From a virus: a stretch of 53,692 bases of DNA. The notes beneath the pieces are model-generated. The model was not told the DNA's origin. It ran no database searches and saw only the letters and a list, made by a program, of their open reading frames with translations. The first letter of the stretch is position 1; every line of letters begins with the position of its first letter. This document shows, piece after piece, positions 7,609-34,831 of the stretch. A program made the position numbers and the translations under genes. The DNA lies in the IMG/VR virus record IMGVR_UViG_3300050133_000100, positions 1 to 53,692 of that record, one strand, 5' to 3'.

Positions 7609-7634
7609 GCGCAGGATGAGAGGCGGTCGGTCAA
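7609..7634 (-). repeat. Inverted repeat T, right arm
   Basis: Minus strand TTGACCGACCGCCTCTCATC, partner of 7200-7222 with a 4-base duplication (GACC). It overlaps the 3' end of the muramidase gene. Confidence 0.6.
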
Positions 7635-8158
7635 TCACTTAACGAATTAAATATATAGAAAAGTACTAAAGCTCCCAATCCCACAAGCCCAATCGTAGCC
7701 CAATCTATCGATCCTGCTGGAGAAGTATCGGGCGGGAGCCCGGTCGTTGGATCGATGGCGGGTAGTCCCGTTGTCGGATCGATGCTGGGCGCGGCCGTCG
7801 ATCCGAGCGCGTTTAAGGGGGTATTCGGGTCGATGCCGACTTGTCCAGCCACGAAGGCAGCGTAACTCTGCGGATCGTTTCCACCTGATCCGCCTGGCGC
7901 GAATCCCGCGTACACTCCTGGTTTACCGGCGAAGAATTCCACCAGCGTGAGGCCGCGGCTGATGTTCAGATTGATCTGCGAGTATAGGGCGTCCCAGCCT
8001 GCTTGCAGGGTTGGAAACTGGGCATAGCCGTTTACGATCGGATTCGATCCCCAGGAGCGCAAGTTTCCCGGATTGTTATTTCGGTACGACAAGGCGTTGG
8101 GGTTTCCGCCTGATTCGACACTGGCGATGGATTGGGCTATGGAATCGGTTAAGCTCAT
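7631..8158 (-). CDS. Membrane-anchored muramidase (phage structural lysozyme type)
   Basis: 175 aa. Residues 1-110 match phage muramidase/transglycosylase domains: IAQSIASVESGG, then RNNNPGNLRSWG, FPTLQAGWDALYSQI and LTLVEFFAGKPGVYA, DPQSYAAFVAGQVGI. They cleave peptidoglycan glycan strands. A linker repeats IDPTTGLP three times, and residues about 152-171 (WATIGLVGLGALVLFYIF) form a C-terminal transmembrane helix. A tail anchor is unusual for a soluble endolysin and suggests a virion- or membrane-bound entry enzyme. Overlaps the next upstream gene by 4 bases. Confidence 0.85.
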   Translation of the reverse strand: MSLTDSIAQSIASVESGGNPNALSYRNNNPGNLRSWGSNPIVNGYAQFPTLQAGWDALYSQINLNISRGLTLVEFFAGKPGVYAGFAPGGSGGNDPQSYAAFVAGQVGIDPNTPLNALGSTAAPSIDPTTGLPAIDPTTGLPPDTSPAGSIDWATIGLVGLGALVLFYIFNSLSD

Positions 8159-8640
8159 AAATCCTTGTTTTTGGCCGCGTTAGTGGGTGACGGTTTGGGC
8201 GCTTGGCGCGCGGTGGCATCGTTGTCGATCTTATGCGCCGTGAGGTTGGTATCCACTTCCAGGGTAGTTGGAACAGCGGGAGCAGCGAGAGGGCGCCGGA
8301 GCTCCCCTTCGGCGATTCCCGCCATTCGGCCCGATACTTCCCCTTCCAGATGTCCGACTTTGCGAGCGCTTGCCATGAAAGCATCCAGTCGCGAATTCAC
8401 CGCCAGGTGCGTTTCCTGCGCCTTCATGAAGGTCATAATGACGCCGGTCGTCGTGCTCAGAAAGCCGATCACGGTCGCGATGAGAACGCTATTGTCCTGA
8501 GTCGGGCGCAGCGAGGTCAACACGAGGATGGCGATCACTCCCAGGCATGCCATGAGTACGCCGGTGAGGGCATAAGGCCAATTGGAGGGTGGGTTCTGCT
8601 GAGATGGTTGGGGCATGTCTTCGAAGGTGATGAGCATCAT
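8155..8640 (-). CDS. Two-helix membrane protein with coiled-coil tail
   Basis: 161 aa from ATG 8640 (or ATG 8637). Two transmembrane segments (ALTGVLMACLGVIAILVLT and SVLIATVIGFLSTTTGVIM) are followed by a helical region (AQETHLAVNSRLDAFMAS) and a polar tail. The pattern and its overlap with the muramidase gene suggest a holin or a virion membrane protein. The L element supplies the bases directly before the start. Confidence 0.75.
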   Translation of the reverse strand: MMLITFEDMPQPSQQNPPSNWPYALTGVLMACLGVIAILVLTSLRPTQDNSVLIATVIGFLSTTTGVIMTFMKAQETHLAVNSRLDAFMASARKVGHLEGEVSGRMAGIAEGELRRPLAAPAVPTTLEVDTNLTAHKIDNDATARQAPKPSPTNAAKNKDL

Positions 8641-8756
8641 AAGTGGTAAACCGCCGTCCACCAGTATGCCAAGGTTTCCAGCTCTGGGAGCGCGGAGATA
8701 GTCGCCGCGTAATGCCGAGTACGGCCCGTAAATCCGCGTTGAACCCAAACCCTCAT
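8637..8756 (-). CDS. Junction ORF built from R and L elements
   Basis: 39 codons from ATG 8756 to TGA 8637, overlapping the next start (TTATGATG). The whole frame consists of the R element, a 50-base spacer and the L element. It may be a translated coupling leader rather than a functional protein. Confidence 0.35.
   Translation of the reverse strand: MRVWVQRGFTGRTRHYAATISALPELETLAYWWTAVYHL
8643..8660 (-). repeat. L element
   Basis: GACGGCGGTTTACCAC ending 2 bases before the ATG at 8640. Confidence 0.8.
8704..8750 (-). repeat. R element
   Basis: TTTGGGTT ... ACTCGGCATTACGCGG, just after the stop of the beta-helix gene (8762). With the L copy at 8643 it makes an 'empty' junction nearly identical to 14450-14560. 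Confidence 0.8.
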
Positions 8757-8761: not shown

Positions 8762-10270
8762 TCACTGCGCAAAAGCGGAATTCGATCCCGTACTGGTGGA
8801 ACTTGCTTGCTGCAACGCTCCGAAACTCAGAGCGCCCGACTGCGAAAGCCCCGGAAGCGCTCCAGGTGTAGCCGTTCCTTTCGCCGCCGCCCCGCCGCCC
8901 GCCGTGGAATTCAGAGTGAAATCGTGCGTTCCGGCGTTGGTGAACGGACTCGCTGTCAGGGTCACGTCCAATGTGTTCGTGTAGGGGTTAGCTGCGTTGA
9001 TCGGATTCGTTGTTCCTGTATCGTCGGCGTTGTTCCTTGCGGCTGTCGTGTTCCCGAAATAAGCGTTACCGTCCCACTGCGGGAACTTTCCCCAGCCTGG
9101 ATTGACGTTGTAGCCGTTCAGTCCATAGCGGGCGTTGGAGATCAGCAGATTGTTGCGCGCCGTTGAATCGGACCCGAGCGAAGCGTTATTAGTGAACTGG
9201 ATTCCATCCTGACCATTATTGTAGATAGTGTTGTTAAAAATGACGTTTATGCCTGAATTGTTCACCAAAATGCCCTGACTCGACGCGCCGGAATTGTTCG
9301 CAATCACGTTGAAGCTGGCCATCGATCCGCCTCCCGCCAGCACGATTCCCGATCCGGTATTGTCGTGGATGTAGTTGCGCTCGATGGAATTTTGAGCTCC
9401 TCCGCTATTCACGGCGCCATTGCCGGCGCTTGCGGTATTGGCGGTGATTTCCGAGTCCATCAGCCTGGACGTGCCGTTGGCCAGATTGACGCCGATAGCC
9501 AGGCAGTTCTTCACCAGCAGGTTTCGTAGCACCGAATGCGAATTGATGCGCGCGCCGAGCGATCCGGTCAAGCTATTGCAGTCGATCACGAAATTACTGA
9601 TCCACCATCCTTGCCCGTTGGTTCCGTCGAGGGCCGTGAGATTGGAGTTGGTTGTGAGTTGGATCGTCGCGCGGCCCGTGTCGGTGCGGCTGGTCGTATA
9701 GCCGATGAGTTGGTTGGGCGGTGCGGCATTGGTTGGCGTGAACTGATTGGCGAGCGTGAGATTCGCCGTGATGGAATAGGTAGCCGTGGCCTTCACGAAG
9801 ATGATATTCTGCGCGGTCATGACCGCAAGGGCCTTGCCGATCGTGGCCAGCGCGCCGCCGATGTTCATCGTCATGCCGGTGGAAGCGGCGATGGAGGAGT
9901 CGATGGTGATGGTGGTCGCGTTCGTGAAAGCGGTCACTTGCTTCCAAACCGCTGTAATGCTACCCGTCCCCCCGGAAAACTCCACGATGTTTCCAACGAT
10001 GGCCGCTGAAAAATTCCCCGTAATGCTGGTGATGGTGGTTGTTCCGATCGCTACCGCGTCAGTGGTGGAAATGTTGACCGTGGCGGATTGGCAAGAGGAG
10101 CAGGCCGCAGCGTTCTTGTTGTTGAACTGGGACATGTCCGTCCCGGTCGCGCCTTGCACGAAGCCGCCGCCGTTGGTGTCGCTCGAAACCGTGCGGACTT
10201 CCCAGGCAGTGTTGCTCGATATGGCAGCAAAGCACGGCGCAGAGATTAGAATAAGAAACAATCCCTTCAT
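8762..10270 (-). CDS. Exported right-handed beta-helix protein
   Basis: 502 aa from ATG 10270 (TGATG overlap with the gene before it). Signal peptide MKGLFLILISAPCFA. The N-terminal region (TNGGGFVQGATGTDMSQ) is a pattern I know from soil-phage surface proteins. Residues about 230-400 are parallel beta-helix repeats (NSIERNYIHDNTGSGIVLAG, NVIFNNTIYNNGQDGIQF), as in pectate-lyase-like tailspikes and depolymerases. No catalytic residues can be pinned down. Likely receptor binding or capsule degradation. A signal peptide suggests the protein, or an assembly stage, lies outside the cytoplasm. Confidence 0.82.
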   Translation of the reverse strand: MKGLFLILISAPCFAAISSNTAWEVRTVSSDTNGGGFVQGATGTDMSQFNNKNAAACSSCQSATVNISTTDAVAIGTTTITSITGNFSAAIVGNIVEFSGGTGSITAVWKQVTAFTNATTITIDSSIAASTGMTMNIGGALATIGKALAVMTAQNIIFVKATATYSITANLTLANQFTPTNAAPPNQLIGYTTSRTDTGRATIQLTTNSNLTALDGTNGQGWWISNFVIDCNSLTGSLGARINSHSVLRNLLVKNCLAIGVNLANGTSRLMDSEITANTASAGNGAVNSGGAQNSIERNYIHDNTGSGIVLAGGGSMASFNVIANNSGASSQGILVNNSGINVIFNNTIYNNGQDGIQFTNNASLGSDSTARNNLLISNARYGLNGYNVNPGWGKFPQWDGNAYFGNTTAARNNADDTGTTNPINAANPYTNTLDVTLTASPFTNAGTHDFTLNSTAGGGAAAKGTATPGALPGLSQSGALSFGALQQASSTSTGSNSAFAQ

Positions 10271-10806
10271 CACTGACACCAAATCTGCCCGGTTACCCGT
10301 GTTACCGTTGTAGCCGTTGCGACCGAAAATCCAAACACATCCCCAGTCGAAACCGCCGCCGTCCATCCTGATCTAGAACCATTTTGCGCCAGTTGCGCCG
10401 TGGAGAGAGTTAGCGGAGCCGACGCGGAAATCTTGTTGCCTGAAGTCGGAATCGCCCCGGCCGCTTTCCAAACATCCACGGTAATCGAACCGGATTGATC
10501 AGCCGAGATATCCCAGCGGTTTATGGTACAAGTGAAATCCGCTGTCGGGTAGACCTTCGCATCCCCAAGGACGATGACCGAGCCGCCGCCGTCGATTACG
10601 AAGCTTATGGAGTGGAGTTGAGAACTTCCTGCTCCCGCACAGGTGGTGCCGTTGTCGATGAGGCTTCCAGCGGCACCGACTTTCACGCAATTTCCAATTG
10701 TAAACGCTCCCGTTATCCTGCCACGCGAGACGAATGATGGCCCTTGCGCCTGGCCGGTCAGAGCAAAGAAGCAAAGAAACAGCCAGATTAATTTGTGGCG
10801 ATCCAT
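10270..10806 (-). CDS. Exported phage surface (fibre-type) domain protein
   Basis: 178 aa from ATG 10806. Signal peptide MDRHKLIWLFLCFFALTGQAQ. The rest is one domain with SISFVIDGGGSVIVLGDAK, CTINRWDISADQSGSITVDVW and GDVFGFSVATATTVTRVT, a beta-sandwich that I recognise from the C-termini of many phage fibre and baseplate proteins. Here it stands alone behind a signal peptide. Probably exposed on the virion and involved in host contact. Confidence 0.78.
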   Translation of the reverse strand: MDRHKLIWLFLCFFALTGQAQGPSFVSRGRITGAFTIGNCVKVGAAGSLIDNGTTCAGAGSSQLHSISFVIDGGGSVIVLGDAKVYPTADFTCTINRWDISADQSGSITVDVWKAAGAIPTSGNKISASAPLTLSTAQLAQNGSRSGWTAAVSTGDVFGFSVATATTVTRVTGQIWCQ

Positions 10807-11834
10807 GAGATGCTCTGACCTCCCGCTGTCGCGATGACGAAAATGAGATTGGTGTTCGAAACTGGCCCACAATAAGCGTCTCCCGGCGCTAGTTCCATTC
10901 CTGTAGACGTCGTAATTCCCGTTGGACCGATGTAGACCGATGCGGTGTTGGTCGAAAGCCCTTTAACGCAGATATTCTTCGCTGCTCCTGAAGTCAGAGC
11001 CACAGCCGCATTCGTCACTGCCTGCTGAGCGGAGCGTACCGCGCTATTGCCTGAGAGTTGTACCAAAGGTCCATGTGTTTCATCGCCTGGCGCTTGCGAA
11101 AAATGATTTCCATCCGCAGTAGTGATAATCGGCAAACTGTAAATACCCATCCCCCCTAGCATGTTGCTCGATTGCAAGAATGGCATGCTGGTTGTGGTTC
11201 CTAAATCGGGTGGCTGGGTAGTTCGTGCCCCTAGTATCAGCCCCCCGAAGAAATCGACCAGGAGTGGCTCGATATTACCTGCATTCGTATCGAGCCCTGC
11301 TACCAGCACTGGAGGAGTCGTAGGCGGGCTTCCTGAGGCAGTGGGACCGATTACCGGGCAGGGATTAGGGCAGCCTGTTCCGGCCGGCGCTCCGCTTCCC
11401 GAATTTGGATTCGTTTTGAAGCCGTGGAATTCCGCCGTCAAGTACCCGGCTCCCGTGGTGGTGATCTGAACCCGCACGTAAGGAAAGTACCCGGTAGCTC
11501 GAATCTCGCCCTGGTTGGTTGCCGTGGTGGGATTCACTGAGCCGGTTACGATCGTGCCGGCGAACGATACGAAGGTTCCTGCCGCTCCTGCCGTTGTCAA
11601 AGGAGCGCTCTGAAGCAATACGGAGACCGTAGCGAAGCCAAATGAAGAGTAGGTGACTACCCAGCCGTCGCACGCTGCGAATCGATTGTCGACCGTCGCG
11701 CTGTTGAAGGTTCCCGCCGTGGTGATCGCCGGTTGCAGGAATTTGCCGCAGTCCGCTTGAACGCTAGAGACGGGCTGGAGTTGCTGAGCGTAGGCTAAGG
11801 GGATGATGAGGAGTGCGAGTAAGAGAGTTTTCAT
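10788..11834 (-). CDS. Exported beta-rich surface protein
   Basis: 348 aa from ATG 11834. Signal peptide MKTLLLALLIIPLAYAQ. Two beta domains are visible: residues about 20-140 (WVVTYSSFGFATVSVLLQS ... YVRVQITTTGAGYLTAEFHG) and about 240-348 (KNICVKGLSTNTASVYIGPTG ... AYCGPVSNTNLIFVIA), joined by a Pro/Thr-rich linker. The second is the kind of receptor-side sandwich common in phage appendages. Overlaps the next gene by 19 bases. Confidence 0.72.
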   Translation of the reverse strand: MKTLLLALLIIPLAYAQQLQPVSSVQADCGKFLQPAITTAGTFNSATVDNRFAACDGWVVTYSSFGFATVSVLLQSAPLTTAGAAGTFVSFAGTIVTGSVNPTTATNQGEIRATGYFPYVRVQITTTGAGYLTAEFHGFKTNPNSGSGAPAGTGCPNPCPVIGPTASGSPPTTPPVLVAGLDTNAGNIEPLLVDFFGGLILGARTTQPPDLGTTTSMPFLQSSNMLGGMGIYSLPIITTADGNHFSQAPGDETHGPLVQLSGNSAVRSAQQAVTNAAVALTSGAAKNICVKGLSTNTASVYIGPTGITTSTGMELAPGDAYCGPVSNTNLIFVIATAGGQSISWIATN

Positions 11835-11851
11835 GTTGTTGGGCTCGACAG
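11834..11851 (+). repeat. R element, partial
   Basis: Only the TTGTTGGGCTCG end, at the start codon of the minus gene 11834. Confidence 0.45.
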
Positions 11852-11890
11852 TCGGTCGAGGGTTTCAGTACTGAAGTGCGCTGTGGCGTA

Positions 11891-12878: not shown

Positions 12879-13460
12879 TTACCTCTTTGGATACTGCCAT
12901 CCCACTACAGCCGCATTCAGCCGGTCTGCAGGATCCAGTCTCCCGAGCGCCCCGGCGCCCAAACTTGCGAAGATTTGGACCCGTTGCAAGGAAAGCAAAC
13001 GGATGTACCCGCCTACAAGCGCATGCGGGTTTCGCAGATCGTTAAGTGAAAAGATCACGTTTGAGAAATCCGGTATCCAGCGCTGACCCACCTGCATTCG
13101 CCAGATGACGTCGCCCGAGCCCTCGACGAAACCGGAACCCGCGACCGTCATCATGACATTGGTTCCGACTCCATCCCATCCGATGGGCATGGTGAAATCG
13201 AGAATTTGCGTATCGACGAGCTCCGCGGCCGGAAGTGGGATCGATCCGACTTTCTGCAGCCTCTCTCCCTCCGGTGGCATTTCAACCCAAGGTGCTTTCA
13301 GGTAGCGCTTTTTACGCATGGTCTGGCAGACCATTTCGAGTCCACCGCGGAGGATGATTTGTTCCCAGAGTTGGCATTCCTGGTTTAAGCAGTGGTTGAA
13401 GGCGTTGGGTTGTTCCCAGATTCGGTTTTGGAGGGAGAGGCAGGATTCGACTAGGGGCAT
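12879..13460 (-). CDS. Virion-type beta protein
   Basis: 193 aa from ATG 13460, with AAGAGG upstream and an L element before that. The first 60 residues are helical with cysteine and tryptophan pairs (CLNQECQLWEQIILRGGLEMVCQ). The rest is beta-rich and ends VVGWQYPKR, comparable to the FLGVKRYKLN and FHGVRRRPC endings of the genes at 18025 and 16449. I infer a capsid-associated jelly-roll-like protein; no family was recognised. Confidence 0.65.
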   Translation of the reverse strand: MPLVESCLSLQNRIWEQPNAFNHCLNQECQLWEQIILRGGLEMVCQTMRKKRYLKAPWVEMPPEGERLQKVGSIPLPAAELVDTQILDFTMPIGWDGVGTNVMMTVAGSGFVEGSGDVIWRMQVGQRWIPDFSNVIFSLNDLRNPHALVGGYIRLLSLQRVQIFASLGAGALGRLDPADRLNAAVVGWQYPKR

Positions 13461-13750
13461 GAAACCTCTTGGTGGTAAACCGCCGTCGTGCTGTCCGCGA
13501 AGGTTAAGGTAGAGGGGAGCGCGGTGGCAGTCAGTTGGAATTCTGGCCGGTCCGAACGGTCCATACGCTCGGTTGGGATGCGCTCGATCTCGATCATGAT
13601 CACGATAGGTGTTCCGCCGTTCCATTCCGCGCGACGGGCCGCGAAGTGCTCCGCTACCAATTTTAGCGAAGAACACCATGAGCCCTTACGTAATCCAAAC
13701 GCTCGGATGGATCGCAGCCGTTCTGTAGTGGTTCCGTGATAGGCGATCAT
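13451..13750 (-). CDS. ADP-ribosyltransferase-like protein
   Basis: 99 aa from ATG 13750, overlapping the upstream stop (ATGA). N-terminus IAYHGTTTERLRSIRAFGL then GSWCSSLKLVAEHFAARRA and PIVIMIEI follow the pattern of small ART-fold proteins (YHGT box, later strand with Glu). They transfer ADP-ribose from NAD or are inactive relatives. The C-terminus runs into the L element. Its position between virion genes is odd and fits a cassette inserted at an L junction, here in the leftward direction. Confidence 0.6.
   Translation of the reverse strand: MIAYHGTTTERLRSIRAFGLRKGSWCSSLKLVAEHFAARRAEWNGGTPIVIMIEIERIPTERMDRSDRPEFQLTATALPSTLTFADSTTAVYHQEVSCP
13471..13487 (-). repeat. L element
   Basis: GACGGCGGTTTACCACC, upstream of ATG 13460 and inside the 3' end of the ART-like gene. 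Confidence 0.8.
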
Positions 13751-13875
13751 GGGCACTCTCCGGCTTTCCGAATTCGAATTGGTCTGCGACCCGCTTCACC
13801 GATAGCGCGTCTCACCGCGCAAAGACTTCGATGAAGCCGAGCAGCCAGTACTACCCAACCTATAAACCGCTTCAT
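13747..13875 (-). CDS. 42-aa junction ORF with hydrophobic start
   Basis: ATG 13875 overlaps the stop of the upstream gene (TGATG), and its TGA overlaps the start at 13750. Starts MKRFIGWVVLAARL, like a short signal anchor, and continues into a degenerate R element (about 13806-13845). May be a coupling leader or a remnant. Confidence 0.4.
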   Translation of the reverse strand: MKRFIGWVVLAARLHRSLCAVRRAIGEAGRRPIRIRKAGECP

Positions 13876-14438
13876 CACGTACACTGAGCTCCTCTATCGA
13901 TCATGTCACACGGTTCTGAAAAATAAAGCGCCAGTTGGCAATTCACAGGAACCGTATCCAGGTTTGCAATTTCCACCGAAAGCAATCCCGGTTTCACGAA
14001 CAGCCGCGGCTGCGTCAAAAGGCATGGCGTCGAGCCCGAGGGGAGAACGATCCCGGCAACCGAAACATCCGGCCGCGGATAGACCGCCTGCGCGTTGATG
14101 AACTCGCTTCCAAACTGACATCCTGTCGCATCGTCGGTGATCTGAATTGAAAGAAGCGATGGCGCCGCAACTCCGAAGAAGTGGCCGCCTTCCACCGTAA
14201 ACTTGTAGCAGGTGGCTCCCCACAAATACGAATTCGGCGTGATACGGATCTGCCGGTTGAACTGCCCTCGAGCCGGGATTGGAATTGTCAGATCGTCAGG
14301 CAAGACCCAGATTCTCTCCCGGTAGTTGTGCGCCCGCCTCAGGGGATCCAGTTGCCCCAGGAGCATGGCGATCGCACGGTAGGGTAAGTATCTGATTGAG
14401 GGGTTCAATGCCCAGCCGTCTACTATGTTGGTAAGCAT
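13875..14438 (-). CDS. Jelly-roll-like virion protein
   Basis: 187 aa from ATG 14438. The body reads as eight or more beta strands (QIRITPNSYLWGATCYKFTV, SLLSIQITDDATGCQF, VSVAGIVLPSG, RLFVKPGLLSVEIANLD, CQLALYFSEPC), as expected of a single jelly roll. Sister proteins by style are at 16449, 18025 and 12879. I infer a capsid or vertex component; fold prediction would be the test. Confidence 0.65.
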   Translation of the reverse strand: MLTNIVDGWALNPSIRYLPYRAIAMLLGQLDPLRRAHNYRERIWVLPDDLTIPIPARGQFNRQIRITPNSYLWGATCYKFTVEGGHFFGVAAPSLLSIQITDDATGCQFGSEFINAQAVYPRPDVSVAGIVLPSGSTPCLLTQPRLFVKPGLLSVEIANLDTVPVNCQLALYFSEPCDMIDRGAQCT

Positions 14439-14572
14439 GGCCGCCTTTGTGGTGAACCGCCGTCGCACATTCCGCGAAGGTTTCCGATTGTCGTGCGCGC
14501 GGAGACTGTCACCGCGCAATGCCGAGCACGGCCCGTCAATCCGCGTTCAGCCCAAACTAAAAGCACTTTCAT
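14423..14572 (-). CDS. Junction ORF built from R and L elements
   Basis: 49 codons from ATG 14572 (MKVLLVWAERGLTG...), ending inside the next gene's start. Nucleotides match the junction at 8637-8756 closely but the translation differs after the first residues, so constraint seems to be on the DNA or RNA. Confidence 0.3.
   Translation of the reverse strand: MKVLLVWAERGLTGRARHCAVTVSARTTIGNLRGMCDGGSPQRRPCLPT
14450..14464 (-). repeat. L element
   Basis: GACGGCGGTTCACCAC, 11 bases before ATG 14438. Confidence 0.8.
14511..14560 (-). repeat. R element
   Basis: TTTGGGCTGAACGC ... GCTCGGCATTGCGCGG, right after the stop at 14581. With 14450 forms the second 'empty' junction. Confidence 0.85.
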
Positions 14573-21813: not shown

Positions 21814-21825
21814 TATTTTTCTCCT

Positions 21826-22158: not shown

Positions 22159-22170
22159 AATTGTCTCCGT

Positions 22171-26511: not shown

Positions 26512-26517
26512 ACGTTT

Positions 26518-27906: not shown

Positions 27907-28175
27907 TGCTGCGCCTCCAGACTGGGAATCCATTCCCGGATTTGGGCAGTGATCTGCGGCCAGAAGTACCACGCGAGCCCGCCCACGATTGCAAGCCCGA
28001 TGAGCCACGTAGTAATCGAGGGACCCGCCGCGGGTGCCGGTGTATCCAAGCAACCACCGATGGCTTGCGTATAGCCAGAGGGGCAGATGCTTGGATCGAC
28101 CACAAGCAATGCTCCGCTCTGGGTCTGCGCGTCGAGTTGCGCCTGCGTCATGGTGATGGGAGTAGGTGCTGTCAT
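27903..28175 (-). CDS. CPSGY-motif protein with C-terminal membrane helix
   Basis: 90 aa from ATG 28175. Has SICPSGYTQAIGGCLDTP followed by a transmembrane helix (ITTWLIGLAIVGGLAWYFW). The CPSGYxxxxGxC motif recurs in the upstream neighbour (28172-28858), again just before a membrane helix, so the two are likely relatives. Confidence 0.7.
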   Translation of the reverse strand: MTAPTPITMTQAQLDAQTQSGALLVVDPSICPSGYTQAIGGCLDTPAPAAGPSITTWLIGLAIVGGLAWYFWPQITAQIREWIPSLEAQQ

Positions 28176-28858
28176 CGCCGCCGCCTTCCGCCGCCGCCCG
28201 AAAGCATCGGCAGGATAACCAGCGCTCCGAGAATCACGGCGCCATAGGTCATCACTTGGGCATTCGTGGCAAAAGAGAACCACTGGCCCGCTGCGGCAAC
28301 GCATGCGCCCGTCGAGGACCTGTATCCGCTGGGGCAGACTGTCGTAGCAACTTGGGAAACTGTTCCCGTTGTGAGCCCTGCTGCGATTTGCGCTGCTGTG
28401 AGTGCTGCGCTGGAAGCCGCGGGAACCATCTTTAAAAGCGCCGCTTGCGCCGCTACCTGCTGGGCTGTGAGTTGCGCGGGAGTCAAGGCGGTACCGGGCG
28501 TGACGTTCGTGATGTTGTAGCCCGGCGCCGCATACAAAGTGCTTGGATCGACGCCGGCCGCGATAGCTCCTGTTGGATCGTATTGGTAGGCGTCGGCTGG
28601 CGCCACTCCTTGGGCGATCAACTGGCTATAAAGGGATGCGCCTGGATCGCTACTGGGAACTGCCACAATCGGAGTAATGCTTGGGTCGGTGCTTACATCC
28701 ACTACTCCGCAGGTCGGATCCGATGCCGGGTCGCACAATCCCATACCGGCGAATCCGCCGCCTCTTTGTCCTGCACCTGGAAACCATCGGCGATAGAGAG
28801 GGCTGGATAGATTCGGAGAGGTGCGTAACGCTGAGCTGAGAGTGGTGGGGTAGATCAT
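28172..28858 (-). CDS. CPSGY-motif protein with C-terminal membrane helix
   Basis: 228 aa from ATG 28858. Long Ala/Thr/Pro-rich body (PGTALTPAQLTAQQVAAQAA), then TVCPSGYRSSTGACVAAAG and one transmembrane helix (VMTYGAVILGALVILPML) with an Arg tail (RRRR). The ectodomain looks extended rather than globular, as expected for a spike stalk or membrane linker. Confidence 0.7.
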   Translation of the reverse strand: MIYPTTLSSALRTSPNLSSPLYRRWFPGAGQRGGGFAGMGLCDPASDPTCGVVDVSTDPSITPIVAVPSSDPGASLYSQLIAQGVAPADAYQYDPTGAIAAGVDPSTLYAAPGYNITNVTPGTALTPAQLTAQQVAAQAALLKMVPAASSAALTAAQIAAGLTTGTVSQVATTVCPSGYRSSTGACVAAAGQWFSFATNAQVMTYGAVILGALVILPMLSGGGGRRRR

Positions 28859-28880
28859 GTCAGCGCCTCAATTGGGATTA

Positions 28881-28897
28881 GGGGTAAACCGCCGTTG
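28881..28897 (-). repeat. L element
   Basis: CAACGGCGGTTTACCCC, upstream of ATG 28858; left border of the cassette holding 28939-29157. Confidence 0.8.
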
Positions 28898-28938
28898 AAG
28901 ATTTCTGCTATTCTGGCCATCAGTGCGCGGAGGCCTTG

Positions 28939-29157
28939 ATGCTCGGACGCATTTCCGAAATGTCCGAAACTGTCACCTGTCCCGACTGTGGCGCATTCTT
29001 CACAATTCATCGCCACAGCGAATTCAGCATACGTACGAGTTCGGAATGCCCGGTATGCTCTGTTCCTGAATTGGCGCAACGCTGGGGACCGGAATTTCAA
29101 CGCCTCCGCGCAATGCCGAGCACAGAGCCGCAACATCCCGATCAGCCCAAAAACTGA
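28939..29157 (+). CDS. Zinc-ribbon protein on a rightward cassette
   Basis: 72 aa from ATG 28939 with GCGGAGG upstream. Two CxxC knuckles (CPDCGAFFTIHRH and CPVCSV) form a zinc ribbon, as in small transcription or translation factors. The last 16 residues (RAMPSTEPQHPDQPKN) come from the R element, exactly as in the cassette gene at 15928. Opposes the virion operon. Confidence 0.65.
   Translation: MLGRISEMSETVTCPDCGAFFTIHRHSEFSIRTSSECPVCSVPELAQRWGPEFQRLRAMPSTEPQHPDQPKN
29105..29153 (-). repeat. R element
   Basis: TTTGGGCTGATCGGG ... GCTCGGCATTGCGCGG, 7 bases past the stop at 29160. Nearly identical to the copy at 16391. Confidence 0.85.
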
Positions 29158-29159
29158 TT

Positions 29160-29336
29160 TCACTTCTGCCCCTTTTTTGGAAGAATCATCGCCAGTCCCA
29201 CCGCTCCTAACGCGAGAATCCAAAACCAGCATGAGGATTCACAATCTGGCCTCACGTCTCCGGCTGCAATCGCTCCGGCTTTACAGCATCCCGGGGAATG
29301 CCTCCATTGATACCCGTAGCCTCCGAGGTTCTTCAT
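29160..29336 (-). CDS. 58-aa C-terminally anchored protein
   Basis: ATG 29336 overlaps the upstream TGA. Short cysteine-containing ectodomain (SPGCCKAGAIAAGD) and one transmembrane helix (CWFWILALGAVGLAMILP) with a KKGQK end. Too short for standard ORF cut-offs. Same design as its neighbours. Confidence 0.65.
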   Translation of the reverse strand: MKNLGGYGYQWRHSPGCCKAGAIAAGDVRPDCESSCWFWILALGAVGLAMILPKKGQK

Positions 29337-29554
29337 GATTTGGCCTTTGCAGTCTTGCCCTTCGTTTTGGGTCCAAGCGCGGTGGCTTTTACTTCCAACT
29401 CTTCATCGGAAAACCGCTGAATGTCGCCGAATTCGATGGTCTCTTCGCCCACGTGGTTGATAATCATCACGCTTGGATTCTCGGTACCCACTCCGAATTG
29501 CAAGATAAGATCCGCCTTCGCGTGACCACTCGATAAACTGATGATGGCGCTCAA
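29333..29554 (-). CDS. Small hypothetical protein
   Basis: 73 aa from TTG 29554, which overlaps the upstream stop (TTGA) and has GGAGG 6 bases before it. Beta-rich with a basic end (KTKGKTAKAKS). No membrane helix; function unknown. Confidence 0.65.
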   Translation of the reverse strand: MSAIISLSSGHAKADLILQFGVGTENPSVMIINHVGEETIEFGDIQRFSDEELEVKATALGPKTKGKTAKAKS

Positions 29555-29718
29555 AACCCGCCTCCATTCAACCAGAAGATTGAGAGTCCCAAAGTCTCCA
29601 GCGCGAAAACGAGCGCGAAAACGACTAGCAATGTGAACAAGCCGAATTTAACGAGCGGAGTCCAACGTCGGAACCGGAATGCCGCCATCATCGTGCGATA
29701 CAGAAAGCCTTTTCTCAT
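29551..29718 (-). CDS. 55-aa single-span membrane protein
   Basis: ATG 29718 overlaps the upstream TGA. Basic N-terminus (MRKGFLYRTMMAAFRFRRW) then one long hydrophobic helix (FGLFTLLVVFALVFALETLG). Positive-inside topology predicts the N-terminus in the cytoplasm or particle interior. Confidence 0.65.
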   Translation of the reverse strand: MRKGFLYRTMMAAFRFRRWTPLVKFGLFTLLVVFALVFALETLGLSIFWLNGGGF

Positions 29719-30329
29719 ACCAGCCACGCATTCGCAACGTGTAACGCTGCCAGTCCTTCGATGCCGGTCAAGCCGAGCTGGGGAGCCTGAAGTTGCGCCA
29801 TTGCCAGCCATGTTCCAATGTCGGTCGGGGTGCTTCTGTCTCCCGCTGAGCCATCGGCTGCGAGTATGCCGGCGTCCTGGTAGGTCTGCGGATCGATCGA
29901 ACCCGGATCGAAGGGGCAATCCTGCCCCGTGGCCGCTGTATAGAAGTAGCACCACTGATCCATCCCAAGCCCGGTAGATGTTCCCGCCAGCGCTGTCATC
30001 TTTTGCGAAATCAATTGTGTTGCCGCTGGTGCGGGATTTACGGGACTTGCTGGTGTCGATGGAACCGAGACAGGTGTGGTGGGCGTCGGTGCGGGGACCG
30101 GAGCTGTAGGCGCACTGATGGCAGGTAGGCTAGATGGCTGCTGCGCCATGATGGCCGCAACCTGCGCCGGGGTTACTCCCGTTGGAGTGGTAACCGGGGC
30201 CGTCGCCAGCGGAGCGCCTGGACCAAACAGACTAGGGAACCACTGCGCCAAATATCCGCCCTTCCAGATCAGATACACTCCCACTCCCCCGACGACGATA
30301 AGAACACCATATTTGACGCGACTATCCAT
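29715..30329 (-). CDS. N-terminally anchored protein with proline-rich stalk
   Basis: 204 aa from ATG 30329. Transmembrane helix at residues 7-23 (YGVLIVVGGVGVYLIWKGG), then a Pro/Thr/Val-rich stalk (PTPTTPVSVPSTPASPVNPA) and a C-terminal domain with MDQWCYFYTAATGQDCPFDP. Unlike most neighbours the anchor is at the start. The stalk plus terminal domain suggests a spike or entry device. Confidence 0.7.
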   Translation of the reverse strand: MDSRVKYGVLIVVGGVGVYLIWKGGYLAQWFPSLFGPGAPLATAPVTTPTGVTPAQVAAIMAQQPSSLPAISAPTAPVPAPTPTTPVSVPSTPASPVNPAPAATQLISQKMTALAGTSTGLGMDQWCYFYTAATGQDCPFDPGSIDPQTYQDAGILAADGSAGDRSTPTDIGTWLAMAQLQAPQLGLTGIEGLAALHVANAWLV

Positions 30330-30408
30330 AGAACACCGCCGCGCAAAGCCGAGCATGGAGTCGTGAGAACAGTTGAGCCCAACAACTAAATTTAGCCCGA
30401 GTCCTCAT
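30322..30408 (-). CDS. 28-aa junction ORF
   Basis: ATG 30408 overlaps the upstream TGA and the TAG overlaps the next gene's start region. Consists of an R element. Possibly only a coupling leader. Confidence 0.35.
   Translation of the reverse strand: MRTRAKFSCWAQLFSRLHARLCAAVFYG
30337..30388 (-). repeat. R element
   Basis: TTGTTGGGCTCAACTG ... GCTCGGCTTTGCGCGG, ending 8 bases before ATG 30329. No L copy follows. Confidence 0.8.
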
Positions 30409-30932
30409 CTTCTGGCCCTCCACCTGTATATTCCATAAGCCGCCGCTCCAAGTAGAGCTACAGCTACAAACGGATGCTCCCTGATAAACCCTCCCGCTCC
30501 ACATCCACACGGAGAAGAATCAGGATACGGCCCGCCAAACTTCGCGCCCCAATAAACCGGCTCGCATCCGTTCCTCTGAATCGCATCGACGAACATCTGC
30601 TCGACACGCGGCGCCACGGGTAAAGGTTGGGACGCTCGGGCAACGGTCGCCATTGATCCGCAATACGGAGCGCAGAGAGGCGAAGCGCAGCTCATCGCGC
30701 CGGCGAATCCTCCAAACGAACAATCGGCTAAGAGGTCGATCCCGGCTTCTTCCTGCGTAATCGCTCCACACTGGATCTTCAGGCACGTTTCAGGATTGGG
30801 AATCGGACGGCCCGGGCGGATACGCGCGAAGCCTGCCGGATCGACCGCGCGAGTCGCAAAGGCCGCGACAAGGGAATCGTACGATGCATCCCCCATTCCG
30901 ACTTGTCCCATGCCTGAGAAGTCCCTCATCAT
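30405..30932 (-). CDS. C-terminally anchored cysteine-rich protein
   Basis: 175 aa from ATG 30932. Body with many cysteines (ETCLKIQCGAITQEEAG, SCASPLCAPYCGSM, NGCEPVYWGAKFGG), then CGCGAGGFIREHPFVAVALL, a transmembrane helix ending in RWRARR. A disulfide-rich ectodomain and tail anchor are likely. No family recognised. Confidence 0.7.
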   Translation of the reverse strand: MMRDFSGMGQVGMGDASYDSLVAAFATRAVDPAGFARIRPGRPIPNPETCLKIQCGAITQEEAGIDLLADCSFGGFAGAMSCASPLCAPYCGSMATVARASQPLPVAPRVEQMFVDAIQRNGCEPVYWGAKFGGPYPDSSPCGCGAGGFIREHPFVAVALLGAAAYGIYRWRARR

Positions 30933-31612
30933 TTAACCGCCGAAATAATCAAGGCTACTGCTGCTAGTCCCGCAATCCAATACAGCATCGGATTGATGGG
31001 AGCCGAAACTAGCGCTGCGCCGGAACTTGAACTCGATGAACTTGTGGCGTTCGTGCTATCTGCCGTGGTCCCGCCTTGCTGCGGAGGTGTTGCTTTCGGC
31101 GTCTGCTGCGGCGTTGTCACTGGAGGGGTAGGCGGTACACCTTCCGCGGCTAGCGCTTTCGCCGCTGGGTCTCCCAAGAGAGCCGCTGCGTTTACAATAT
31201 CGGCAGTCGATCCGCCTGTTGTTCCTGGAAGGGTGAGCCCGAAGGTTCGCGAGTAGCAGTCTGGCGGTTGCGGGAAGGTATTCAAGCAGTTCTGTACGTC
31301 CACGTTGTAGTTCGCTGCGGTTCCTTGCGCCATGTTCTGCTGCTGTGTCGCTAGCAGTTGCGCGATGCATGCCGACGAGAATGCCGCGCCGCCCGGTCGC
31401 GTGTCCTGGCTACAAGCCGGAGGCGCTATGGGTGTGGGGGCTTGATACACCGCTGGTCCGCTGCCGCTTCCGCTCCATCCGCCTGAGGGTGTCCAGATCG
31501 TTGTGACGTTCACTCCAGGATCGGCGCCGATTCCGGATCGTCTCTGTCTGCCGGGGTAGCGGAAGCCTCCACGCGAGGGGTAGCCGTTTCCGTTGCGGAG
31601 TTGGACGTTCAT
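30929..31612 (-). CDS. C-terminally anchored, low-complexity protein
   Basis: 227 aa from ATG 31612 (1-base overlap with the upstream stop). Gly/Arg-rich start (GGFRYPGRQRRSGIGAD), a middle with cysteines (DVQNCLNTFPQPPDCYSRTF), a Pro/Thr/Ser linker including seven serines in a row, and a transmembrane helix (MLYWIAGLAAVALIISAV). Confidence 0.7.
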   Translation of the reverse strand: MNVQLRNGNGYPSRGGFRYPGRQRRSGIGADPGVNVTTIWTPSGGWSGSGSGPAVYQAPTPIAPPACSQDTRPGGAAFSSACIAQLLATQQQNMAQGTAANYNVDVQNCLNTFPQPPDCYSRTFGLTLPGTTGGSTADIVNAAALLGDPAAKALAAEGVPPTPPVTTPQQTPKATPPQQGGTTADSTNATSSSSSSSGAALVSAPINPMLYWIAGLAAVALIISAVK

Positions 31613-32331
31613 CAGTCGTTCTCCGTGAGGACGTAACCCAATCCGAAAGCGATTAAAGCAAGCCCGCCCCACAAGTAGAGATTCGTGCTTGAGTTGGAAA
31701 CAGTTGTAGAGCCTGAAGCGGATGCGGTGTTGCTGCCGCCCGCCGAGCCCGGCGTGCTAGTGTTGACAGGTGCGCCCGGTGTGGAACTTTGCGCCGCCAC
31801 TTTTGCCGCTGCGACATTGGCCGCTACTGCCGGATCGTTTGCAATCGGATCGTAGTAGTATCCAAACCAGTCCCACTTACCGCCACGCTGCCGATCCTTC
31901 AGACAGTTTGATCCTGCCGAGCCGAGCTGGGGATTGGAGCATAATTGCACGATCTGATTCCAGCCCTGGCTGAAAACTTCCAGGGCGTACTGCTGAGCTT
32001 GGGGTGTCTTTTCTTCCGGTGCGAGAGATTGCCACGCTGCAAGGTTCGGCTTCATTACGTCCGCTTCCATCTGGTTTACCCATTCGGTTGTGATGGTGTT
32101 GTTTGGATTGGGGCCAAACAGCGAGACGATATTTGCCAGCGCGGCGCCCGCTTCCAACACTGCGCCCGCGATCGGGATGCCGGCCTTGGTGGCTGCCGAT
32201 GCCATCTGCTGCAATGATCCGGCTACAGCTTTCGCGTCTCCCTGCTGAGAACTCCCGGAGAGTCCCCAGTGAGGCATCTGATAGCCGGTGCGTCTCCAGC
32301 CGGTCCATTCGTATTGTGGAACTGTGCTCAT
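31612..32331 (-). CDS. C-terminally anchored protein with helical body
   Basis: 239 aa from ATG 32331. Helical N-terminal domain (AVAGSLQQMASAATKAGIPI, ALEVFSQGWNQIVQLCSNPQ) with PQLGSAGSNCLKDRQRGG, then a Ser/Thr/Gly linker and a transmembrane helix (LYLWGGLALIAFGLGYVL). Some residues (SQGWNQI...C) recall small peptidoglycan-side proteins, but I cannot assign a family. Confidence 0.7.
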   Translation of the reverse strand: MSTVPQYEWTGWRRTGYQMPHWGLSGSSQQGDAKAVAGSLQQMASAATKAGIPIAGAVLEAGAALANIVSLFGPNPNNTITTEWVNQMEADVMKPNLAAWQSLAPEEKTPQAQQYALEVFSQGWNQIVQLCSNPQLGSAGSNCLKDRQRGGKWDWFGYYYDPIANDPAVAANVAAAKVAAQSSTPGAPVNTSTPGSAGGSNTASASGSTTVSNSSTNLYLWGGLALIAFGLGYVLTEND

Positions 32332-32741
32332 CGGCTGCGTTTTTTACCTGCGGGACGGATTAGCAGACTGTTGTTTCCTTTCCTTTGAACTTTTACACGG
32401 GCGCCAGATAAAGTAGTGGGGTACCAGCTTCCGGGTTTCATTTGAGAGATTTTGGCCCGTAGATTCTTCGCCGGATTAGACTTTTTGCGCGCGGTGGAGC
32501 GCTTCTTGGTTTTGGCGCGCGTCTGTTTTTTGTTCCGGGCTGTCTTGCAGTTCTTCTTGGCCGGGCGCTTCGCTTTCTTCTTTTTCTTCTTGGTTGCCAC
32601 GGGATTCCTTTTCAATCGTTCCGCCAATGCGACTAATTGCCTCCAGCGCTGTCTTTCTTTGGCTGTGAGCATCCGTCGGCTCATCAGATCATTCAAGCGC
32701 TGGATTTTCGCTTCGACGCTTGCTCGTGTTTGCTTCGCCAT
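32328..32741 (-). CDS. Basic protein sharing a C-terminal module with the HNH protein
   Basis: 137 aa from ATG 32741. Very basic (KKKKKKAKRPAKKNCKTARN). The last 35 residues (GSWYPTTLSGARVKVQRKGN) align with the end of the next gene upstream (KKWTPATLNGARVRIRAVGK). DNA binding is likely from charge. Probably a virion core protein. Confidence 0.7.
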   Translation of the reverse strand: MAKQTRASVEAKIQRLNDLMSRRMLTAKERQRWRQLVALAERLKRNPVATKKKKKKAKRPAKKNCKTARNKKQTRAKTKKRSTARKKSNPAKNLRAKISQMKPGSWYPTTLSGARVKVQRKGNNSLLIRPAGKKRSR

Positions 32742-33313
32742 CAGCGCCCCACCTTGCCGAGATCAATCTGCAGCCCCTTGCCCACCGCCCGAATCCGTAC
32801 CCGTGCGCCGTTCAGTGTCGCCGGCGTCCACTTCTTCAGCGGGTTGCCGCGCGCTTGACGGGCGCTCCAGATTTCCGAAGCGTATTCCCTGCGCTTAGAC
32901 TTCGGGGTTTCGTGGATGATGCGCCCGCCTTCGTCATGCGCCTTGCGGGTATGCTGCAGAACGGCGTTGACGTATTCGCCCAGCGATTGAGCGCCTGGGT
33001 TGTACTGAGCCGTTCTTCGGCCCTTGCCCTTTCTGGCCATCTTCGCCCCTTCCCGCGTGTTGCATGATTTGCAGAGCCAGCGGAGGTTAGATTTCGCGCC
33101 GTTCGATTCGTCACCGTCTTTGTGGTCGATGGTTAGAAAACGAGTCGAACCACAGATGGCGCATTCTCGAGAACCGGATGGACGGCAAGCCTGTTGATTG
33201 GCCCGGTACCGCTTTGCCCGGTCGGTGACCTTCTGTTTCCGGGTGCGAGCACAGCCGCCGCGCTCCCGTTTGCCTTGACCGCCTGCGCCGCCTGTATTCA
33301 AAACCTGATTCAT
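32741..33313 (-). CDS. HNH-type nuclease domain fused to a virion module
   Basis: 190 aa from ATG 33313 (ATGA overlap). Residues about 48-90 have CAICGSTRFLTIDHKDGDES and LRWLCKSCNTREG, a zinc-bound HNH nuclease motif. After a basic stretch, the C-terminus (WTPATLNGARVRIRAVGKGL) matches that of 32328-32741. An HNH domain tied to a putative capsid module could cut DNA during packaging or entry; it may also be a domesticated homing nuclease. Confidence 0.72.
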   Translation of the reverse strand: MNQVLNTGGAGGQGKRERGGCARTRKQKVTDRAKRYRANQQACRPSGSRECAICGSTRFLTIDHKDGDESNGAKSNLRWLCKSCNTREGAKMARKGKGRRTAQYNPGAQSLGEYVNAVLQHTRKAHDEGGRIIHETPKSKRREYASEIWSARQARGNPLKKWTPATLNGARVRIRAVGKGLQIDLGKVGR

Positions 33314-33960
33314 CGGTTCTTCACCAGATAGATAACTGCTGCTACGGCTGCTATCCCAACAATCCATGCGCCAGGTGAAGCTGAGCCTGCTACTGCCACT
33401 TGCGGAAGCGTGCCGACATATCCCGGCGTTCCGTATGCTGGCTGAACCTGAGTGCCGGCCGCTACGCTCGCGCCTGCAGCGATCGCGTTGAGAATCCGCT
33501 GCGTTGTGTCCTGGCACAGCACGGCTCCGTATACGGTTGGATCGCACGGCATTCCGTTCGACAATGTGTAATCGCCGATTCCTTTGGAGCAAGCGGTCGG
33601 ACGTCCTGCTCTTCGCCATTTATCAAACTGCGATTCGCTTCGCTGCGATCCTATCCGGTCCCACTGCGTACCCCTGGTGTTGCGCCGCGATCCGACGTTG
33701 AGAACGCTTGAGCCGATATCGAGGATGCTGGGGGCTCCTGGGGTTTCTCCGGTCCACACGGAGGCATCGTTAGTAAACGGTGACGAGCTGCCGGATTCCG
33801 CGGTCATCGGTTCGCCGGTTGCCGGATCCACTCCACTGGCGTCTGATCCTGAAGGCCAGAACTCGGCGCCGATTACGTTTCCTTGGGAATCGAGTGCGAA
33901 GTTGGGAACACCTCCACCTGGTAGCCCGAGCCTGCCGGTTAAGGTGATCGGGAGTATCAC
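33310..33960 (-). CDS. C-terminally anchored protein
   Basis: 216 aa from GTG 33960 with GAGGA upstream. Body with VDPATGEPMTAESGSSSPF, a basic part (RRNTRGTQWDRIGSQRSE) and YTLSNGMPCDPTVYGAVLCQ, whose LSNGMPC also occurs in the candidate capsid protein at 19152. One C-terminal transmembrane helix (GAWIVGIAAVAAVIYLV). No family recognised. Confidence 0.68.
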   Translation of the reverse strand: MILPITLTGRLGLPGGGVPNFALDSQGNVIGAEFWPSGSDASGVDPATGEPMTAESGSSSPFTNDASVWTGETPGAPSILDIGSSVLNVGSRRNTRGTQWDRIGSQRSESQFDKWRRAGRPTACSKGIGDYTLSNGMPCDPTVYGAVLCQDTTQRILNAIAAGASVAAGTQVQPAYGTPGYVGTLPQVAVAGSASPGAWIVGIAAVAAVIYLVKNR

Positions 33961-34160
33961 AGGTTTTCCTCGACTGTGGATAAACCGCCGTTGACCAGCA
34001 AAGGAAGGTTTCCGGCTTGCGGGAGCGCGGAAACATAGAATGCCGCTTGAGAATGTTGGGCAACGCTTGTTTTCGATATTCTGACCGAGTATTCTGCGGC
34101 CGCGCAATGGTTCGCACGGATCGGGCACAGTGACGCGGCCAATATATAAGGATGCGTCAT
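33957..34160 (-). CDS. 67-aa junction ORF
   Basis: ATG 34160 overlaps the upstream TGA and its TGA overlaps GTG 33960, so it is coupled on both sides. Spans a damaged R (about 34104-34150) and the L at 33977. Begins MTHPYILAASLCPIRANHCA. Uncertain whether the peptide matters. Confidence 0.4.
   Translation of the reverse strand: MTHPYILAASLCPIRANHCAAAEYSVRISKTSVAQHSQAAFYVSALPQAGNLPLLVNGGLSTVEENL
33977..33998 (-). repeat. L element
   Basis: GGTCAACGGCGGTTTATCC, upstream of GTG 33960. The following AAGGTTTCC and GGAGCGCGGA match the junction at 8643-8756. Confidence 0.8.
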
Positions 34161-34831
34161 GCCCACACCCTCCACGCAACAAACCCAAGAGCCGCTACTA
34201 AAGCTACAGCTCCAAGAACTTTCCATCCCGATTGCGGCCACTCCGCTCGTTTCCCATACGGGTTAGGAGCTTCCCATCCCGGATACTGACCATGCGACGT
34301 ATCGAGCGCTACACGTCCTGACCAATTCGGCCCGCATTGACCCCCGGAACAATCCGCGAAGTTGTACACATGCGAATAACGGCCAGGGTCTTCAGGATCC
34401 ACTGCTACCGTCACGAAGCCGGCCGGAATTCCCAAAGCAAGCAAGCGAGCTCTCATCGTCATCGAGAAGCAATCGCAATCCCCTTTCGGATCGGCCATTC
34501 TGCGCATGTCCACCGGACGAACAAGCACCTCTGGCACGCCGTCGCCATCGTGCGCTTGCTTCAGCCAGGCGCTGAACGGTTCCCCTGTGTCTTCGTCCTG
34601 AACAAAGCGGATCGAGTTTTTCACGTCCTGCCAGTTGCCGGCGATGCAATCCCCGTTCCCTAACGCACACCCTCGCAACGCATCGGCGCGGATCTCGGGA
34701 GAGAACGAATCCGCATCCGAGTAATCGACCATCATGTCGATCACTTGCGCTACTTGGGTGTCGGGGTCTTCAGAGAGAGGCGTGGCGTCAACGTTGATGA
34801 CTCCACCGAAGGATGGTTCGTAAACCCGCAT
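34157..34831 (-). CDS. Membrane-anchored transglutaminase-like protein
   Basis: 224 aa from ATG 34831. Cys119 in KGDCDCFSM, His154 in GRYSHVYNF and Asp177 in ALDTS form the transglutaminase/papain-fold triad. A C-terminal transmembrane helix (WKVLGAVALVAALGFVAW) anchors it. Related phage proteins are thought to cleave or crosslink proteins or peptidoglycan peptides. First gene of the leftward virion block, reading from the divergent promoter region at 34.9 kb. No clear Shine-Dalgarno, so start is tentative. Confidence 0.78.
   Translation of the reverse strand: MRVYEPSFGGVINVDATPLSEDPDTQVAQVIDMMVDYSDADSFSPEIRADALRGCALGNGDCIAGNWQDVKNSIRFVQDEDTGEPFSAWLKQAHDGDGVPEVLVRPVDMRRMADPKGDCDCFSMTMRARLLALGIPAGFVTVAVDPEDPGRYSHVYNFADCSGGQCGPNWSGRVALDTSHGQYPGWEAPNPYGKRAEWPQSGWKVLGAVALVAALGFVAWRVWA

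Follow-up and report, generated by a model that had tools for sequence, protein, structure and literature searches.

The virus analysed here, IMG/VR record IMGVR_UViG_3300050133_000100, compares best with SSIP-1, a phage with a circular genome of 43,788 bp that is, to our knowledge, the one known isolate of large, tailless, membrane-containing phages of this size class. The SSIP-1 virion is described as icosahedral, membrane-containing, 100 nm in size and T=49, with double-stranded DNA (dsDNA) (PMC6260650), and as having two types of major capsid protein (MCP) (PMC6356626). The vertical single-jelly-roll viruses (Halopanivirales/Singelaviria) are described as carrying an FtsK/HerA-type packaging ATPase (PMC8328091). 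FLiP and the Odin group are presented in a survey as double-jelly-roll viruses without a packaging ATPase (PMC5894146); FLiP has a circular single-stranded DNA genome of 9 kb, and the surveyed prokaryotic double-jelly-roll set spans 7-18 kb (PMC5894146, PMC6260650). Within that survey, a missing packaging ATPase accompanies small genomes (PMC5894146). Whether double jelly rolls are derived from single ones is a matter of debate (PMC8328091, PMC12714852).

The window, i.e., the whole stretch of DNA that was analysed, is the complete virus record of 53,692 bp. Its first 127 bp recur identically at 53566-53692; the contig is therefore circular, and the circle assumed by the initial annotation is borne out as a circular assembly. 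Genes were called by codon usage (90, many of them very small) and scanned against Pfam and PHROGs. We consider it quite probable that the window is a tailless, icosahedral bacterial virus, probably with an internal membrane, of an undescribed lineage with genomes of 54-62 kb; its shape, membrane and host we infer. The lineage appears to be defined by one collinear virion block, around which the replication genes seem to have been swapped. The initial annotation had also seen a tailless jelly-roll or membrane phage of a new lineage, and the fold matches of one protein, the lack of a recognisable terminase or packaging ATPase and homology to an SSIP-1 protein sustain it, but not its size ceiling or several of the open reading frames (ORFs) that it listed. 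The ceiling, 9-16 kb for tailless membrane phages, was wrong: SSIP-1 has 43,788 bp, and genomes of the Sphaerolipoviridae are given as about 30 kb.

A collinear virion block in ten genomes

Nine further IMG/VR genomes of 55.3-61.6 kb, plus one partial genome, were found with the transglutaminase-like protein encoded at 34157-34831 and then with profiles of the protein encoded at 19152-19883. Among the ten genomes including the window, the ends are identical over 123-127 bp in six and over 23-29 bp in two, and two have no identical ends. The terminal repeat and the core genes of the block are as follows, with proteins named by the left coordinate of their genes.

1..127, no strand: terminal direct repeat, same as 53566-53692 (circular assembly)
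34999..36630, plus strand: P34999, 543 amino acids (aa), coiled-coil-rich by eye, divergent first block gene, 10/10 genomes, adjoins the transglutaminase-like gene
34157..34831, minus strand: transglutaminase-like protein (PF01841) with a C-terminal span, 10/10 genomes
31612..32331, minus strand: P31612, conserved, C-terminal span, 10/10 genomes
23468..24850, minus strand: P23468, 460 aa, 22% lysine plus arginine (K+R), conserved
19956..20744, minus strand: P19956, protamine-like basic N-part and hydrophobic C-part, directly upstream of P19152
19152..19883, minus strand: P19152, putative MCP, 243 aa, beta-sandwich, 10/10 genomes at 30-40% identity
18025..18459, minus strand: P18025, predicted single jelly-roll protein of capsid type, 144 aa, 10/10 genomes (model and fold matches)
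16449..17333, minus strand: P16449, tandem (double) copy of the P18025 domain, 294 aa, 10/10 genomes (profile comparison)
13875..14519, minus strand: P13875, conserved virion-block protein, start probably at 14438, 10/10 genomes
12879..13679, minus strand: P12879, conserved, start probably at 13460, 10/10 genomes
10788..11834, minus strand: P10788, secreted or spike-like, conserved, 9/10 genomes

With rotation allowed, all ten genomes share the order P34999 (divergent), transglutaminase-like protein, P31612, P23468, P19956, P19152, P18025, P16449, P13875 and P12879, and in nine of them P10788 closes the collinear block. The core proteins of the relatives are mostly 23-53% identical to those of the window. 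When ORFs of at least 80 aa were clustered at E 1e-8, the families present in at least seven of the ten genomes were 12 virion-block families only, so that it is the block that characterises the group, which is what one would expect a virion module to do. Replication genes are not common to the group; for the window DnaB, for instance, BLAST gives relatives in only three of the nine other genomes.

P23468 is found in all ten genomes at E ≤ 1e-3 and in nine of them in the stricter clustering, with no match in Pfam or PHROGs. P19956 is recovered in six genomes by BLAST and in the other four by position, and all ten fall in one cluster; in each, the N-part comprises 121-245 residues with 32-42% K+R and 0-8 acidic residues, a hydrophobic part comes after it, and a terminal motif of the type GDFVxGxFPxPxNPI is conserved. 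P12879 clusters with a 911-aa protein of G007, and a similar domain is found in relatives within much longer spike-like proteins.

Outside the group, two scans of genome contigs, which reached as far as short-peptide prefilters, gave no provirus, and a plasmid search with the G003 homologue of P19152 gave no match. The phage collection yielded nothing in protein searches with P19152, P16449, P23468 and the G003 homologue of P18025, or in a DNA search with positions 1-25000 of the window, and searches of an open-access library gave no description of the group.

Predicted jelly-roll proteins and a homologue of SSIP-1 gp34

Based on an alignment of the ten P18025 proteins and the twenty halves of P16449, P18025 was modelled with a predicted local distance difference test score (pLDDT) of 85.6, a predicted template-modelling score of 0.75 and seven strands of at least three residues, and the model supports a jelly-roll fold. 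Its top match in VIA-align is a virion chain of SPV1 (Z 9.2, root-mean-square deviation (rmsd) 3.4, 130 residues aligned), followed by HHIV-2 (Z 9.1, rmsd 4.0, 114 aligned), HCIV-1 (Z 8.1, rmsd 3.0, 112), SH1 (Z 8.0, rmsd 3.5, 118) and P23-77 VP16 (Z 7.0). We take the matched SPV1, HHIV-2, HCIV-1 and SH1 chains to be jelly-roll capsid proteins of those viruses, and the SPV1 family to be the Portogloboviridae. Foldseek independently ranks an SH1 chain first (E 8.6e-4) as the sole PDB chain under E 0.001, while against BFVD the model matches unnamed or diverse beta proteins. Sequence searches of the PDB with profiles of P19152 and P18025 gave 0 matches.

The neighbouring P16449 is a duplication. 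Its N and C halves match each other with a profile probability of 97.6% (E 3.5e-12), and P18025 matches the N half at 98.8% and the C half at 97.4%; because both halves match each other as well as P18025, P16449 is an internal duplication that is predicted to form a tandem jelly roll. P19152 is the likely main capsid protein, judging from its conservation, its place and its codon score, which at 0.25 per residue is the top value among called genes of at least 200 aa. Its low-confidence model (pLDDT 56, six sequences) has as its best PDB match an SPV1 virion chain (Z 7.1, rmsd 3.8, 150 aligned), with SH1 at Z 5.0, and finds no BFVD entry at E ≤ 0.001. A profile link between P13875 and P18025 is weak (32%). 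Among the jelly rolls that the initial annotation had proposed, P18025 is supported by its model and P16449 by homology, and the evidence for P19152 is suggestive; the protein encoded at 20830 turned out to carry an ice-binding domain, and nothing points to a jelly roll in P23468, with 22% K+R, or in P34999, a coiled-coil protein by eye.

The transglutaminase-like protein is homologous to a protein of SSIP-1. PF01841 is matched by ten of 107 core proteins of the group, and the transglutaminase core is weak in the window, where the protein first matched SSIP-1 gp34 at E 0.05 over the whole phage collection. In hhalign, the family profile aligns with gp34 over 124 columns, longer than a short stretch at the catalytic motif, at a probability of 97% (E 2.8e-10); the best reversed control reaches 2%. 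SSIP-1 gp34 is annotated as "structural protein". The best SSIP-1 match of P34999 is gp33, the neighbour of gp34, and at a probability of 23% it is a lead. For P19152 the best match is gp46, a single-sequence target, at noise level (2%), where gp45 and gp46 are presumed from position and size to be the capsid proteins; comparison of the P19956 C-part with gp44 also gave noise.

Packaging genes and alternative readings

No terminase, portal, HK97 capsid, tail or packaging ATPase gene had been recognised initially, and the PHROGs and Pfam scans and a P-loop search agree. With 92 window proteins, no terminase large subunit (TerL), portal, capsid or tail-tube family is among the best 25 of 105 PHROGs families; with 86 proteins, strong non-virion matches having been removed, none is among the best 25 of 48, a scan that covered matches weaker than E 6.5e-4 in part. 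Scans of single proteins against PHROGs gave no TerL, portal, capsid or tail-tube match either. As a positive control, five of five proteins of Pseudomonas phage phi297 were placed in terminase, portal, head, tail and tape-measure families, an easy test because PHROGs was built from such phages. Very remote fold-level homologues of portal, HK97 capsid and tail tube are possible among the unmodelled proteins. At E ≤ 1, the TerL profile PF03354, to which 3 of 14 control genomes respond, and the FtsK profile PF01580, which reaches only E 0.004, under the cut-off, on SSIP-1 itself, match none of the ten genomes; HerA/DUF87 (PF01935) matches one, G005, outside its virion block, and nothing in the window.

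A terminase or FtsK/HerA packaging ATPase requires a P-loop. In window ORFs of at least 100 aa, a canonical Walker A motif occurs in DnaB only and a variant in the SNF2 helicase, the same two proteins in which clear P-loops had been read before. No P-loop is conserved in any family present in at least seven of the ten genomes; a P-loop-like string occurs in one member of the P34999 family and two of the P23468 family. In G010 (57,918 bp, repeated ends), no ORF of at least 150 aa contains a convincing canonical Walker A, and this genome may consequently depend wholly on host replication enzymes; several other genomes of the group encode P-loop proteins outside the virion block.

Some apparent hallmarks were rejected. 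The "terminase small subunit" family phrog_4581, which counted two members in the 92-protein scan, one of them the product of 40807-41517, reflects the HNH part of that product and no hidden terminase, and the "tape measure" family phrog_2276 reflects the lysozyme part of the product of 7631-8158. The string GxxxGKT in homologues of the putative capsid protein P19152 (GPASGKT in G003, G007, G009 and G010, and GNQTGKT in G006) was rejected as a P-loop, being missing from the window, G002, G004, G005 and G008, and the sole Walker A pattern match in G010, a 173-aa ORF, was judged spurious. The 107 core proteins (muramidases and two P34999 homologues that span locus cuts set aside) gave just five PHROGs matches, all of them weak and confined to one member apiece, among which tape-measure phrog_7025 (E 5e-4) is probably a chance or coiled-coil match.

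These results have to be weighed against an ordinary phage of the Caudoviricetes in which sequence divergence hides the genes for terminase, portal, HK97 capsid and tail. The size, the circular assembly, DnaB and the SNF2-methyltransferase (57% identity to Pseudomonas phage proteins) are typical of tailed phages, tails and head decorations can likewise contain beta-sandwich and beta-helix proteins, the tape-measure match given above comes from one of the 107 core proteins, and a baseplate protein ties in the fold search with P18025. We nevertheless disfavour this reading and deem it improbable, because a terminase needs a P-loop and no P-loop family is conserved; in addition, TerL is matched in none of the ten genomes, the PHROGs matches of the core proteins are weak and single-member, and the top two fold matches of P18025 are virion chains of tailless viruses. 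Another reading leaves the tailless virus as it is and gives it a motor, either a virus-coded ATPase whose P-loop is non-canonical or an ATPase that each genome has recruited on its own (DnaB, HerA or VirE-like); it concerns the packaging step only, so that its odds overlap with those of the tailless reading, and we regard it as a serious possibility that falls short of likely. SSIP-1 gp40 is annotated as both an ATPase and a structural protein, G005 has its HerA-like ATPase, and in several other genomes P-loop proteins are encoded elsewhere than in the block; these ATPases, however, are not one family across the genomes and all lie outside the virion block, and G010 is without a convincing canonical Walker A. 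That the window is not a virus but a defective or plasmid-like element that carries an operon of surface proteins, we find very hard to credit: capsid-type jelly rolls, a muramidase, spikes and a homologue of an SSIP-1 structural protein speak for a virus, as do the conserved block and the nearly uniform size of the ten genomes, although G010 seemingly has no replication ATPase and the group is known here from genes alone.

The last point also weighs against the tailless reading, and so do several others. In the fold search with P18025, the Z values of nucleoplasmin (8.4), a baseplate protein of a phage (8.4) and PHM (8.2) lie within one unit of the top value and so tie with it; Z values of 8-9 are common to non-capsid jelly rolls, and the fold alone is therefore no proof of a capsid role. 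For most chains the fold table gives entries and not molecules, and only VP16 is named as a capsid protein. The P19152 model is weak and its SPV1 match lies below the tool's own decisive level. Hydrophobic stretches of the window P19956 pass a Kyte-Doolittle value of 1.3 and none reaches 1.6; without a span at the usual cut-off, its membrane anchoring is a guess. Beyond gp34, and gp33 at 23%, no tested SSIP-1 protein rises above noise in hhalign. SSIP-1 gp40 ("ATPase; structural protein") has no counterpart in the window or the group, and a search of the phage collection with gp40 returned SSIP-1 itself only. Finally, packaging could be driven by an ATPase whose P-loop is degenerate, or by a motor of the host.

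Further genes, proposed assembly and comparison with known systems

By Kyte-Doolittle hydropathy, hydrophobic spans occur in 16 of the 41 called minus-strand genes of 7631-34831 vs. 4 of the 49 others (Fisher p 7e-4). Exactly one span is found in 13 block genes, close to the "about 15" small single-span proteins counted initially, and the reported membrane-anchored muramidase and transglutaminase-like protein, each of which ends in a hydrophobic span, and the lipoprotein in the block are confirmed. The remaining block features are:

7631..8158, minus strand: muramidase with a C-terminal span at residues 155-173 (lysozyme-domain PHROGs "endolysin" and "tape measure")
8762..10366, minus strand: right-handed beta-helix protein (PF13229, E 3.3e-12)
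14581..15834, minus strand: probable spike with the Asp-box-like string SIDNGATW (by eye), partial match to G003 15074-16675
20830..22572, minus strand: three tandem genes with a common domain of about 100 aa (112-nucleotide direct repeat, family D5)
25832..34188, minus strand: run of small proteins, many with one C-terminal span (Kyte-Doolittle, Pfam)
25832-26341, minus strand: lipoprotein (lipobox by eye)
32328-32741, minus strand: lysine-rich protein within the small-protein run
32741-33313, minus strand: HNH protein within the small-protein run

Nearly the whole virion side lacks Pfam and PHROGs matches, apart from an ice-binding domain, a beta-helix, the weak transglutaminase core, a lysozyme domain and one HNH. 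The muramidase is found in seven of the ten genomes by BLAST and in all ten by single-linkage clustering. The beta-helix protein is a probable receptor-binding or depolymerase spike. The product of 14581-15834 has no Pfam or PHROGs match; the G003 protein of 15074-16675, which it matches in part, is also matched by P12879. The first of the three tandem genes carries an ice-binding-like domain (PF11999, E 4.4e-62), which is unexpected for a virion block. A single copy of the motif LRDFVxxxFPEPxNPIY closes the basic protein (19956-20582), two copies lie in a small single-span protein (26518-26892, minus strand), and a similar string starts a protein family of five relatives (G004:32650-33231) that is not in the window; perhaps it is a common docking motif for the shell.

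On the replication side, Pfam identifies DnaB (45500-47014), a fused SNF2 and N6_N4_Mtase protein (41514-44351) and DUF5131, which agrees with the initial annotation, whose DUF3310 was named by no scan; single-protein scans of DnaB and the SNF2-methyltransferase covered Pfam only. HNH enzymes and a nucleotide phosphatase also lie on this side, and one window protein matches a "nucleotide kinase" PHROG. Repeats of 40-70 bp (families D1-D8 and D10-D17) are dispersed at gene ends and starts, e.g., at 14445-14572, 16384-16452, 15858-15896, 6607-6664 and 51422-51479, and occur in G002 and G008 as well. Their elements are GTTTGGGCT..CTCGGCATTGCGCGG and GGCGGTTYACC, often directly 5' of start codons, which may face each other as an inverted repeat; AGCGGACCTCC lies near C-termini and gives several small proteins a common tail (ADERTSDPN..). 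Such repeats resemble the start-associated sequences of some phages, or cassette borders; a DNA fold of one of them gave no signal (z -0.55). Two small plus-strand ORFs, 12395-12817 and 17566-17754, opposite in strand to the virion genes, are kept in G002 and G008 (52-60% and 65-78%) and are therefore possibly real genes within the virion block. The products of the minus-strand genes 5439-6602 and 2095-2841 share 98% and 90% identity with G002, compared with 24-42% for most core virion proteins of this pair (P10788, in part, and the muramidase 73-79%), which points to recent gene exchange within the group.

Based on these features, we propose how a tailless, membrane-containing virus of this kind may be assembled. 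The many small single-span proteins and the basic P19956 would be inserted into the host membrane, where basic N-parts (P19956, and also P23468 and the product of 32328-32741) would bind the circular genome and condense it along the inside of a vesicle. Jelly-roll proteins would then close the shell around the vesicle, with the single-jelly-roll P19152, as the likely main subunit, and P18025 together with the tandem-jelly-roll P16449; the proteins of 8762-15834 and 20830-22572 would form spikes, and the muramidase and transglutaminase-like protein may have a part in entry or maturation. The virus would thus not have to encode a terminase or an FtsK/HerA motor for packaging. Of this scheme, the motor-free packaging step by condensation, which we infer, is doubtful when taken alone, and we put forward only tentatively the combination of motor-free condensation of circular dsDNA by membrane-anchored, protamine-like proteins with shell genes that preserve a single jelly roll beside its own duplication.

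We conclude that the nearest plan is that of SSIP-1 and the vertical single-jelly-roll viruses and that the lineage is unclassified; it is not placed in the Sphaerolipoviridae or among the double-jelly-roll viruses because a packaging ATPase was sought and not found. With the Caudoviricetes, such as phi297, the window shares a DnaB-type helicase and the SNF2-methyltransferase (57% identity), but it has no recognised terminase, portal, HK97 capsid or tail genes. SSIP-1 likewise has a large circular genome (44 kb vs. 54-62 kb here), its transglutaminase-like gp34 adjoins a coiled-coil-like gp33 as 34157 adjoins 34999, and by eye it has a lysozyme-like protein and several small proteins with hydrophobic C-terminal ends. 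Its capsid proteins and most other tested proteins, in contrast, have no detectable homology to those of the window, its gp40 ATPase has no counterpart in the larger genomes of the window and its relatives (54-62 kb), and its tailless, membrane-containing virion is described in the literature; the window is known from a circular assembly and its genes. The ten genomes of 54-62 kb from public metagenomes, with their common core, would turn SSIP-1 from an orphan type into a lineage with core genes.

The vertical single-jelly-roll viruses (Sphaerolipoviridae/Halopanivirales, i.e., SH1, HHIV-2, HCIV-1 and P23-77, of the Singelaviria) and SPV1 resemble the window in the P18025 fold, in having several jelly-roll genes and in their small hydrophobic proteins. 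Halopanivirales have two MCPs of vertical single-jelly-roll fold, for which P18025, by its fold matches, and P19152, by a low-confidence model, are candidates in the window. These viruses differ from the window in that profiles of P19152 and P18025 match no PDB chain by sequence, that the window has no FtsK/HerA ATPase found and a genome about two to three times larger, and that one of its jelly-roll genes is an internal duplication. Like FLiP and the Odin group, the window has no virus-coded packaging ATPase found, degenerate P-loops aside, but their genomes are small and the window has 53,692 bp; a 54-62 kb group without a conserved packaging ATPase breaks the small-genome pattern and makes motor-free packaging testable. 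The Bamfordvirae (PRD1, PM2), which differ from the window in that no FtsK/HerA packaging ATPase is recognised in it, carry two jelly rolls in one MCP, and P16449 of the window, a putative shell protein, is a tandem of the P18025 domain. Neighbouring paralogues with one and with two copies of the jelly roll are relevant to the debate about single and double jelly rolls and, if the interpretation is true, would show in an extant virus the single-to-double step by which the PRD1-adenovirus capsid fold is proposed to have arisen.

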